A DNA stretch of 37,737 bases from Bacillota bacterium. Its GTDB lineage: Bacteria; Bacillota; Clostridia; Lachnospirales; WQUN01. Every line of letters begins with the position of its first letter. Within the stretch, counting starts at the first letter, position 1. This document shows, piece after piece, positions 19,237 to 23,512 of this stretch. Location: NCBI GenBank assembly GCA_009782085.1, contig WQUN01000251.1, positions 1-37,737 on the forward strand, written 5' to 3'. The position numbers and the translations under genes are program-made. The notes beneath the pieces are model-generated. The model was not told where the DNA came from, made no database searches, and saw nothing but the letters and a program-made list of their open reading frames with translations.

Positions 19237-20505
19237 TTAATAAAAATATTTTTCCACCGTAAAGATGAAGTCCGTATTATCGGCGTAATAATTGGCCAAC
19301 TCCGGCGCGCCGGCGGCTTTTGACTTTGAAAATACCGAGACGATCGCCTCGTCGCCGCGTTCCAGTGCGAAGCCGCACAGGGACAGGGTTTGCCTTAAGG
19401 TGTCCAGCGTGAAATGATAGGTGTGGGCGTTTTGAAAATAGCGCAGATAGTCGAAATTATACGCGCATATGTTCTTTATGCCCGGAACCTCGACGTAAAC
19501 GCGCCCTCCGTCGCGTAAAAGCCGCCTGACGACCCCGAATTCCCCCGGAATGTCCAGGAAGTGCTCCGCCGCGTGGGAGAGGATTATCAGGTCAAAGCTG
19601 TTTTCGTCCGTTTCCAGCAGGCTGCCGGAGCGCATGTTCCGGAGGTCGAGGCCCTTGCTTCCGCCGATCTCCAGGTACTCGCCCCCTATGTCAACGCCCA
19701 GGGCCTCGCAGCCGCTTTCCGCGAACGGCTCCAGTATCCCGCCCGCGCCGCAGCCGATCTCCAGCACGCGCGCCCTCTCCGGGAGGGCGTCTTTTACATA
19801 GTCCAGGATTTTTCGCCCGCGGCAGACCTGGGAGGCGTAGAATGGCTCCGAGGACACGTTCCAGGTGTAGAGCCGCCTGTACTCGCGCTCGTAGAATTCG
19901 CTGTAAGCCGCCTCCGTCATCCTCGGCCTTGTCAGCAGGAGGCCGCAATTCTTGCAGAGCGCCGTGGTCACGGGCAGGCCGTATCTGTCCTTATACGCGA
20001 TATCGGTGAAGCTCTCTCCGCCGCATACGCACGGGGGCGTTTCCAGCGCGTAGTGATTAGAGGACAGCTTATCCAGGACTTCCCGGCGGGCCGCTTCGGC
20101 GGATTCGTTCAGACAAGCGGCGCACACCCCGTCGCAGACGAATCTGCCGCTCAACAGGCGGGAATCGTTTTCCCGGCCCGGGCTGAATATTCCGGGCTCG
20201 AGGATTTTTTCGATTTCGTTCGCGAAGGGGATGAGCCGCCCCGCCGCCAGGGCGTTCAGCGCGCCGCGGTCATGCCCGGCGAGGCTTCGCGCGAACGACT
20301 CAAACGCGCGGCCGAAGCCGGCGAGCGAACTTTCCGGGACCAAACCGGAAGCCGCGCCGGCGAGCGCTTCCTTGCACGAGATCAGCGAGGGGACGTAGGC
20401 GTCGATTTCTTCGGCGCCGCGAGCCAAAGCCAACTGAACGGCGATCACCTTGAATATCCTGATTTTTTCCGTTACGGCGGGAAAGGCGCGGGCGTTTTCA
20501 GGCAT
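19237..20505 (-). CDS. Class I SAM-dependent methyltransferase with N-terminal Cys-rich region
   Basis: I start it at the ATG at 20505 (MPENARAFPAVTEKIRIF), with AGGG upstream, giving 422 residues; the track's start at 20568 runs into repeat and promoter-like DNA. The N-terminal half has an unrecognised helical region, then Cys pairs (CDGVCAAC, CVCGG, CKNCG) that look like zinc ligands. The C-terminal half is a Methyltransf_11/23-type fold: VLEIGCGAGGILEPFAESG for SAM binding, and FDLIILSHAAEHFLDIPG. A similar architecture occurs in sugar C-methyltransferases and in uncharacterised polysaccharide-locus enzymes. The substrate is unknown. It is transcribed divergently from the ribosomal operon. 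Confidence 0.78.
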   Translation of the reverse strand: MPENARAFPAVTEKIRIFKVIAVQLALARGAEEIDAYVPSLISCKEALAGAASGLVPESSLAGFGRAFESFARSLAGHDRGALNALAAGRLIPFANEIEKILEPGIFSPGRENDSRLLSGRFVCDGVCAACLNESAEAARREVLDKLSSNHYALETPPCVCGGESFTDIAYKDRYGLPVTTALCKNCGLLLTRPRMTEAAYSEFYEREYRRLYTWNVSSEPFYASQVCRGRKILDYVKDALPERARVLEIGCGAGGILEPFAESGCEALGVDIGGEYLEIGGSKGLDLRNMRSGSLLETDENSFDLIILSHAAEHFLDIPGEFGVVRRLLRDGGRVYVEVPGIKNICAYNFDYLRYFQNAHTYHFTLDTLRQTLSLCGFALERGDEAIVSVFSKSKAAGAPELANYYADNTDFIFTVEKYFY

Positions 20506-20565
20506 TGGATCCCTGTCCTCTGATATATTTTTATACGAATCTCGTGTAACCCCGGAGTGCGAGAA

Positions 20566-20699
20566 CACTATAAACTGTCATCCTGGGCGAAGCGTCATCC
20601 TGGGCGAAGTGTCATCCTGAGCGAAGCGAAGGATCTTAAACAGCCAAAACATAAGATTCTTCGCTGCGCTCAGAATGACAAAAAGGGGTTTTTGAGGTT
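20566..20699. repeat. 110-bp dispersed element, copy 2, with internal triplication
   Basis: The core GTCATCCTGAGCGAAGCGAA and its inverted partner match the copies at 7725 and 33492. Near the left end the word GTCATCCTGgGCGAAG is repeated in tandem, giving three heads. The outer ends are eroded compared with copies 1 and 3. Confidence 0.85.
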
Positions 20700-20747
20700 G
20701 ATTACAGTATGTTCAGTTCGCATAATAATATCTCGAAAAAATTTTTG

Positions 20748-20776
20748 TTGCATTCCGAAAACTTTTGTTATATAAT
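20748..20776 (+). promoter_or_regulatory. Promoter of the S10-spc-alpha operon
   Basis: TTGCAT (half-match to the -35 consensus) and a perfect TATAAT are exactly 17 bp apart, in AT-rich surroundings that contrast with the GC-rich neighbours. It is the only good plus-strand promoter upstream of rpsJ and would give a leader of about 365 bases. Confidence 0.75.
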
Positions 20777-20848
20777 GCCCCTCGTTGTGACGATTTCCAA
20801 GCGATGACGCGGAAGGTTGCCGGAATACCGGGGAATTTCCGTTAGCTA

Positions 20849-20948
20849 ATACCGATTCCGGATTAAACCGTTGAAAACAAGCGCCGCGAAACGCCGTGCG
20901 TTTCGCGTTTGGCGCGAAGTTTGAAACAAGTTTAATCTGAATCGGTAT
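20849..20948. repeat. 100-bp inverted-repeat element in the S10 leader
   Basis: The ends ATACCGATTCCGGATTAAAC and GTTTAATCTGAATCGGTAT are inverted repeats. The centre is a strong hairpin (GCGCCGCGAAACGC, loop CGT, GCGTTTCGC...GGCGC). A similar end sequence, TGATACGAATCTCAGATTAA, appears at 37697 and runs toward the window edge. Confidence 0.75.
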
Positions 20949-21018
20949 CAGGGGTCTAGGGATTGTTTCCCAGGCCCCGGTCCAGTTCCAGAAACCGGGC
21001 GGCAAATCAGTTTTGCGG

Positions 21019-21043
21019 TTCAACGGTATACCGTTGTTTTTTT
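21019..21043 (+). terminator. Candidate attenuator (intrinsic terminator) in the S10 leader
   Basis: CAACGG-TATA-CCGTTG forms a 6-bp stem with a 4-base loop, directly followed by seven T. It lies about 100 bases before rpsJ and downstream of the operon promoter. The 5' arm TTCAACGG is exactly complementary to CCGTTGAA at 20868-20875 in the same leader, which could form an alternative antiterminating pairing. The ligand or protein that would control it is unknown. Confidence 0.6.
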
Positions 21044-21147
21044 AAGCCTGACCTGGATACGCCCGGCTAAGTGTGCGGTTCCCGCCTGTCGCGCAAGGCA
21101 TTCTCAACCTTATCGGCCACAACCAAACGAAAAGGAGGGAATTTAGC

Positions 21148-21459
21148 ATGGCGAACCAAAAAATCCGCATAAGCCTGAAGGCGTACGACCACAAACTGAT
21201 CGACCAGTCCGTGACTCAGATCATAGACACGGCCAAGCGCACCGGCGCGAAGGTCTCGGGGCCGATACCCCTGCCGACCAAGAGGGAGATAGTCACCATC
21301 CTGAGATCGCCCCACATCGACAAGGACTCGCGCGAGCAGTTCGAGATGCGCACCCACAAGAGGCTGATCGACATCATCATGCCGACGCCCAAGACCGTCG
21401 ACGCCCTGACAAGGCTCGACCTGCCCGACGGCGTGGACATAACCCTTAAAATAATGTAG
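21148..21459 (+). CDS. rpsJ: 30S ribosomal protein S10
   Basis: 103 residues from the ATG at 21148 ([20 protein letters not shown]), preceded by AAGGAGGG; the track's start at 21073 is 25 codons too early. Conserved S10 blocks [20 protein letters not shown] and [10 protein letters not shown] are intact. S10 sits in the 30S head and in NusG-linked antitermination complexes (NusE). It is the first gene of the operon. The TAG stop codon forms the first three bases of a hairpin repeat (TAGGGGCGATT). Confidence 0.98.
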
Positions 21460-21674
21460 GGGCGATTGCCAATCGCCCGCATGTATCGGCAATTACCAAT
21501 CGCCCGCATGTATCGGCGATTACCAATCGCCCGCATGTATCGGCAATTACCAATCGCCCGCATGTATGTGCGATTGCAATCGCCCGCATGTATCGGCAAT
21601 TGCCAATCGCCCGCATGTATGTGCGATTGCAATCGCCCGCATGTATGTGCAATTATCAATCGCCCGTATGTACG
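21457..21674 (+). repeat. Eight tandem 26-27-bp hairpin units between rpsJ and rplC
   Basis: Units follow the scheme CGGCAATTACC-AATCGCCCGCATGTAT. The first, TAGGGGCGATTGCCAATCGCCC, has perfect 8-bp arms (21460-21467 and 21471-21478) and a 3-base loop. Later units keep a shorter stem of the form GCGATT/AATCGC or GCAATT/AAT. They lie within the transcribed operon. Confidence 0.93.
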
Positions 21675-21701
21675 GCGCGCCTTCCCCGGCGCGCGGCCCG
21701 T

Positions 21702-23378: not shown

Positions 23379-23477
23379 ATGCAGGGAACGGTCTTGACCG
23401 TTCCGGACGCCAATATGCAGGGAACGGTCTTGACCGTTCCGGACGCCAATATGCAGGGAACGGTCTTGACCGTTCCC
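23379..23477 (+). repeat. Three 36-bp tandem repeats with palindrome GGGAACGGTCTTGACCGTTCC
   Basis: Units start at 23379, 23415 and 23451 with the head ATGCAGGGAACGGTC; the third diverges after its palindrome. The core is the same as in the arrays at 7151 and 7608, over 15 kb away. It occupies most of the 167-base rplW-rplB spacer. Confidence 0.93.
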
Positions 23478-23512
23478 GGACACCAGAAAATCGAGCATTG
23501 GAGTTGGAATAA

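Follow-up and report, generated by a model that had tools for sequence, protein, structure and literature searches.

The leader region upstream of rpsJ

The window, which is the whole stretch of DNA analyzed here (37,737 nt), carries rpsJ, the gene encoding ribosomal protein S10, followed in order by rplC, rplD, rplW, and rplB. As the first-pass annotation had proposed, a TATAAT promoter and a structured leader of the S10 operon precede rpsJ. The −10 element (TATAAT, 20771-20776) lies 17 nt downstream of TTGCAT (20748-20753), and transcription is expected to start near 20783. The structured leader is probably regulatory, and the promoter ahead of it is a good one. The promoter, the elements of the leader, and rpsJ are as follows.

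20748 to 20776, + strand: sigma-70-type promoter, TTGCAT-17-TATAAT, recognized by sequence; in relatives, TATAAT is similarly spaced from GUUGUGAC
20784 to 20796, + strand: 5′ strand of helix P0, GUUGUGAC-GAUUU, from the conserved helix and the fold of the window
20809 to 20842, + strand: P1 hairpin with the AGGUUGC box, 5′ half of RF03136, from the RF03136 match and P1/P2 covariation
20847 to 20950, + strand: inserted palindromic repeat (TAATACCGATTC...GAATCGGTATCA), from related elements elsewhere in the genome and a predicted fold of −50.8 kcal/mol
20951 to 20978, + strand: second hairpin of the insert, GGGGTCTAGGGA...TCCCAGGCCCC, predicted fold of −20.5 kcal/mol
20980 to 21003, + strand: P2 hairpin, GTCCAGTTCCAGAAACCGGGCGGC, 3′ half of RF03136, from its likeness to locus L030 and alignment A1
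20999 to 21004, + strand: 5′ strand of helix P4, GCGGCA, pairing with UGUCGC at 21087-21092
21021 to 21043, + strand: terminator-like hairpin, CAACGG-TATA-CCGTTG plus seven T, from its fold and shuffles; the region is variable among relatives
21059 to 21074, + strand: ACGC-CCGGCUAA-GUGU (CCGG) hairpin; the ACAC/CCGG motif occurs in nearly all relatives examined
21077 to 21083, + strand: 5′ arm of the Shine-Dalgarno-masking helix, GGUUCCC, pairing at 7 of 7 positions with 21137-21143; covariation reached in 0 of 500 shuffles
21087 to 21092, + strand: 3′ strand of P4, UGUCGC, from its pairing with GCGGCA and the conservation of P4
21132 to 21143, + strand: Shine-Dalgarno sequence AAGGAGG and 3′ arm of the masking helix, GGGAAUU, from the sequence and the R2 match
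21148 to 21459, + strand: rpsJ (ribosomal protein S10), Pfam PF00338, E = 3.8e-39

Other repeats surround the leader. Just upstream of the promoter, three 17-bp repeats (GTCATCCTGGGCGAAGC; 20573-20690) run into an imperfect TGTCATCCTGAGCGAAGCG-type palindrome, and a similar palindrome adjoins another repeat copy at locus L128. Sub-threshold Rfam matches to microRNAs and small RNAs at 20603-20754 stem from this palindrome and were rejected as spurious. Within the operon, a tandem array of a 27-bp unit (ATGTATCGGCAATTACCAATCGCCCGC, 8.4 copies; 21454-21676) sits in the intergenic space that separates rpsJ from rplC, and a 36-bp unit is repeated 2.9 times between rplW and rplB (23379-23485), each unit holding the inverted repeat GGAACGGTC/GACCGTTCC.

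An Rfam scan of the window at the gathering threshold returned no match. Below the threshold, the leader scored 19.8 bits against the S10-Clostridia family (RF03136; gathering threshold, 35.1 bits) over 20796-20874, in an alignment that is misaligned across the insert, and P1 alone (20796-20844) scored 18.5 bits (E = 0.025 in a 61-nt search). Like members of this family, the leader lies in the 5′ untranslated region of rpsJ. Both strings of P1, AGCGAUGA and AGGUUGC, are present, and 20809-20815 pairs with 20836-20842. P2 is almost the same as its counterpart in L030 (GTCCAGTTCAAGAAACCGGGCGAC), and P0 closes with AAAUC at 21004-21008 in the window and as GUGAC/GUCAC in relatives. RF03136 places P2 directly after P1, whereas in the window 133 nt separate the P1 domain from P2. 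We attribute the low score to this insert, which parts P1 from P2 and thereby hid a match that the first-pass annotation had missed when it found no obvious resemblance to known leaders. Homology to the family, the conserved pairings, the insert, and the loss of a U-run described below all have computational support. We conclude, with a probability of about 0.7, that the S10 operon has its 5′ leader at 20783-21147 and that this leader is a diverged homolog of the S10-Clostridia leader, split by a repeat and carrying a 3′ switch domain at the start of rpsJ.

The repeat inserted between P1 and P2

The inserted repeat is a lineage-specific, dispersed palindromic element of ~98-105 bp found at at least 26 sites in the genome (for example, L118-L131 and L232-L241). 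Across the repeat family in this genome, the inner boxes TGAAAACnAGCGC and GCGCGAAGTTTGAA are fixed and the outer stems vary, being of GTCGTTTCG or TACCGATTC type. The main subfamily (A) comprises 26 near-identical full-length copies, some of them head to tail, and no copy of this subfamily was detected in 40 related genomes. For the dispersed element, neither a host gene nor a mobilizer was identified.

The insert is not present between P1 and P2 in any of 59 aligned relatives, and leaders of relatives from the same family (L006, L021, L022, and L224) are uninterrupted. All of the genomes searched come from outside the genus of the window, so the comparison does not bear on the age of the insert or on a possible assembly error. 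At one locus in an unrelated genome (L212, genome G079), ~60 extra nucleotides of hairpins lie between P1 and P2, suggesting that this junction tolerates insertions.

A conserved domain at the rpsJ start codon

RF03136 lies upstream of rpsJ in relatives, where P1 and P2 covary, and occurs in 98 of 146 genomes from the order. We aligned 59 leaders of relatives with that of the window after removing the window's insert (alignment A1). Conservation runs ~110-150 nt past RF03136, up to the rpsJ start codon. P0 (GUGAC/GUCAC) is paired in 97% of cells, with three two-sided changes, falling at two pairs, compared with 0.2 in shuffles. A long-range helix, P4, consists of GCGACAA/UUGUCGU and ACUGUAC/GURCAGU and is 95.1% paired in relatives, compared with 17-47% when slid by one to three columns. 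Covariation in P4 is weak, with a score no better than that of shuffles (295 of 500), because the helix is so invariant.

The second structure of this domain, hairpin T, has an outer helix that takes in the end of the Shine-Dalgarno sequence (AGUCACC/GGNGACU) and an inner helix (UCGUACU/AGUGCGA). It is paired in 86.8% of cells and has 30 two-sided changes, compared with 8.0 in shuffles, none of 500 of which reached this number; the result stood when the analysis was repeated without the window. P4 and T are mutually exclusive through a common strand, GUGUACAGUCACC-CUUGUCGU, and most of the 59 relatives show a difference of no more than ~5 kcal/mol between constrained folds of the two. A run of six to eight U separates T from AUG in all 59. 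The 5′ strand of P4, in turn, shares nucleotides with the 3′ strands of both P2 and P0.

Leaving the window out, we built a covariance model of the 3′ domain (R2); its single match in the 37.7-kb window is at 21051-21150 (36.5 bits, E = 5.9e-6). Across the order, the model matches 209 of 295 genomes, almost always once per genome, and wherever a match could be set against the position of rpsJ, it ends at the start codon of that gene. The conserved, predicted switch of the family is located there and not at 21043. An Rfam scan of 12 loci placed the 3′ domain in no family, and it is undescribed as far as Rfam and the literature searched show, with the 2007 Firmicutes S10-leader paper and supplements lying outside that literature.

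The state of the domain in the window

P1, P2, and the CCGG hairpin are retained in the window, as are the masking helix and the outer part of P4 (GCGGCA/UGUCGC). The masking helix, GGUUCCC/GGGAAUU where relatives have AGUCACC/GGNGACU, is fully paired through compensatory changes: a C-G pair has become U-A, and the usual A-C or A-G mismatch has become C-G. At the four uninterrupted leaders of the same family, an alternative pairing of GUUUC with GGAAC can be found by eye. Other parts have eroded. Inner P4 is lost or mostly G-U, the inner helix of T keeps three of seven pairs, and the sequence before the start codon reads UUUAGC-AUG, a run of three U in place of the six to eight of relatives. 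With the U-run gone, Shine-Dalgarno masking would be the means of any control exerted at the start codon. In an insert-free construct of the window, T is predicted to be more stable than P4 by 15 kcal/mol, which could mean that the switch is broken or has been rewired.

These losses could instead mean that the leader is decaying and that no regulation is left, with the insert, the lost U-run, and the weak P4 as stages of loss and the hairpin at 21021 as an incidental or weak constitutive terminator. The genome's own family often loses P1 and P2, and RF03136 has been lost in most of it (only G008, G009, and G013 score), which fits such a course, as do the energetic disfavor of P4 and the short U3 before AUG. 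Against decay stand a masking helix that is paired at all seven positions and shows compensatory changes, an outer P4 strand that still pairs, the CCGG hairpin, and the R2 score of 36.5 bits; we regard full decay as unlikely, if worth keeping in mind.

The terminator-like hairpin at 21021-21043

The first-pass annotation had also proposed an intrinsic terminator ~100 nt before rpsJ. The hairpin at 21021-21036 (predicted −7.1 kcal/mol) has six base pairs, four of them G-C, and a UAUA loop, and is followed at once by seven T (21037-21043). No other structure on the window's + strand combines a stem of six or more pairs, four or more of which are G-C, with at least six T in eight. A terminator of this kind arose in 1.9% of dinucleotide shuffles of the leader, or in 0.65% when seven T were required; shuffles of the whole window, both strands considered, gave one to four terminator-like hairpins each. 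The sequence occurs once in the 2.49-Mb genome even with up to three mismatches allowed, and the idea that it is a dispersed element was rejected on this basis. It is also unlikely to end an upstream transcript: the neighboring gene is a divergent methyltransferase gene (19237-20568, − strand), and the promoter lies between. At the same place in relatives, we found no conserved terminator; a U-tailed hairpin of any kind occurs in 8 of 121 leaders, and most of these are not comparable. The proposed element is thus real as sequence and, at P of ~0.01, modestly better than chance, and it is plausibly an intrinsic terminator, specific to this lineage and with no conserved counterpart.

Among members of the order, a canonical terminator downstream of P1 is absent from all 78 leaders in which six or more U precede AUG, and 2 of the 10 leaders without a U-run (the window and L007) have one (Fisher P = 0.012, a post hoc test that ignores relatedness). 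L007 and L191, which belong to one genus, have a canonical-type terminator, GGAACAACTCGGTTGTTCC-TTTTT, between P4 and the Shine-Dalgarno sequence and an AUG with no U-run before it; the L191 hairpin resembles that of L007 with one G-C pair fewer and falls below the G-C cutoff. These sequences hint that the termination function can move within the leader. In the window, the U-run would then have been lost and the hairpin at 21021-21043 would now be the leader terminator, fed by the same P0/P2/P4 domain. The split between leaders with and without a U-run speaks for such a relocation. Only two independent lineages contribute to it, however, and no structure gating the 21021-21043 hairpin was found in the window, which leaves relocation a rather improbable account.

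The weakest alternative is the attenuator of the first-pass annotation, controlled by L4 or S10, in which TTCAACGG of the terminator (21019-21026) would pair with CCGTTGAA at 20868-20875 as an antiterminator. Our sequence check confirmed the perfect 8-nt complementarity, which extends to 11 of 12 positions over a longer stretch, and the terminator-like hairpin with its U7 also speaks for the proposal. In 4.2% of shuffles, however, the hairpin region has a complement of at least 8 nt within the 228 nt that precede it, and the match is unconvincing after a free search. When imposed on the fold, the pairing carries a penalty of 12.5-13.3 kcal/mol for nascent transcripts with ends at 21026-21043 and of 17.5 kcal/mol for the full leader; it must open a −51 kcal/mol hairpin, and its Boltzmann probability is ~0 at all transcript lengths tested. 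The CCGTTGAA partner falls within the repeat at 20847-20950, which 40 relatives lack; that annotation had itself noted that part of the structure falls in a repeat element. The repeat's conserved box itself supplies the TTGAA half of CCGTTGAA, and other copies of the repeat carry the same TGAAAAC box. Neither pairing of the proposal is conserved in the 59 aligned leaders, where the antiterminator has no counterpart. With chance, energy, and conservation all against it, we rejected the antiterminator; the complementarity is most likely a coincidence, and the attenuator as a whole is highly improbable.

A model for the S10 leader of the order

The reading that we favor, a diverged and repeat-split S10-Clostridia leader with a switch domain at its 3′ end, suggests how such a leader might work; here, we infer the direction of the switch, its ligand, and any termination. 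The 5′ domain formed by P0, P1, and P2 is probably the protein-binding part. Because the 5′ strand of P4 shares sequence with the 3′ strands of P2 and P0, a stabilized P0-P1-P2 would exclude P4; other r-leaders suggest that the stabilizing ligand may be a protein encoded in the operon. With P4 blocked, hairpin T would form and transcription would stop, the ribosome-binding site would be masked, or both. Without the protein, P4 would form and the operon would be expressed. In the window, masking is the one output that can be discerned at the start codon, and a lineage-specific intrinsic terminator may be formed by the hairpin at 21021-21043. A broader proposal treats the order's S10 leader as a switch with two outputs: a single hairpin would serve both as a terminator, by means of the U-run before AUG, and as a Shine-Dalgarno mask, with a long-range antiterminator opposing it, and lineages without the U-run, including the window, would have moved transcription control to a newly acquired leader terminator. 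We put this forward tentatively, as a doubtful extension.

No piece of the leader is more widely kept than the ACAC/CCGG hairpin. It stays near the Shine-Dalgarno sequence even in family members without P1 and P2, which makes it a candidate contact site. At loci that have lost P1 and P2 (L008-L020, L023, L024, L027, L028, and L034), a short ACACRCCCGG-type hairpin is found, mostly 30-120 nt before rpsJ. It is possible that this hairpin alone constitutes a minimal leader.

These results bear on the regulation of the largest ribosomal-protein operon of Firmicutes, for which leaders have so far been predicted. A conserved pair of helices that exclude each other at the start of rpsJ, seen throughout an order of gut Clostridia, offers a directly testable mechanism, and the window shows how an S10 leader tolerates or loses parts once a repeat lands inside it.

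Relation to known S10 leaders

In E. coli, the S10 leader controls both transcription and translation, and its attenuation depends on L4 and NusA (PMC10931766). The window resembles this system in having a long structured leader ahead of the S10 operon and differs in that the only Rfam match in its leader is the sub-threshold one to S10-Clostridia. The rpsJ motif RLC-47-1 of Peptostreptococcaceae is a candidate leader in the 5′ untranslated region of the S10 gene in Clostridia (PMC11109978) and shares this location with the leader of the window.

The S10 leader of Bacilli (L067, L080, L098, L107, and L114) is closer, sharing the frame of the AGGUUGC hairpin, a GACACACCCGG-type motif, and P2 before the Shine-Dalgarno sequence. 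In Bacilli, the GACACACCCGG motif lies within the P1 loop, whereas in the window and related Clostridia it forms a separate hairpin near the Shine-Dalgarno sequence. Placed side by side, the Bacilli loci and L041, L136, and the window (21059-21074) show an apparent rearrangement of leader domains.

The S10-Clostridia r-leader has been treated as the Clostridia extension of the S10 r-leader reported earlier in Firmicutes (PMC7247131), and the literature searched contained no described mechanism or ligand for it. The class is therefore known, and the window holds a split and diverged copy that scores below the threshold and is not filed as a formal member. It shares with RF03136 its place upstream of rpsJ, a P1 with AGGUUGC, and a P2 hairpin of the GUC..GAC form, and departs from it in its score and in the separation of P1 from P2. 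The leader in this order also has the 3′ domain, with P4, T, and the CCGG hairpin, which the 81-position Rfam model lacks, and this domain is an addition to what that model contains.
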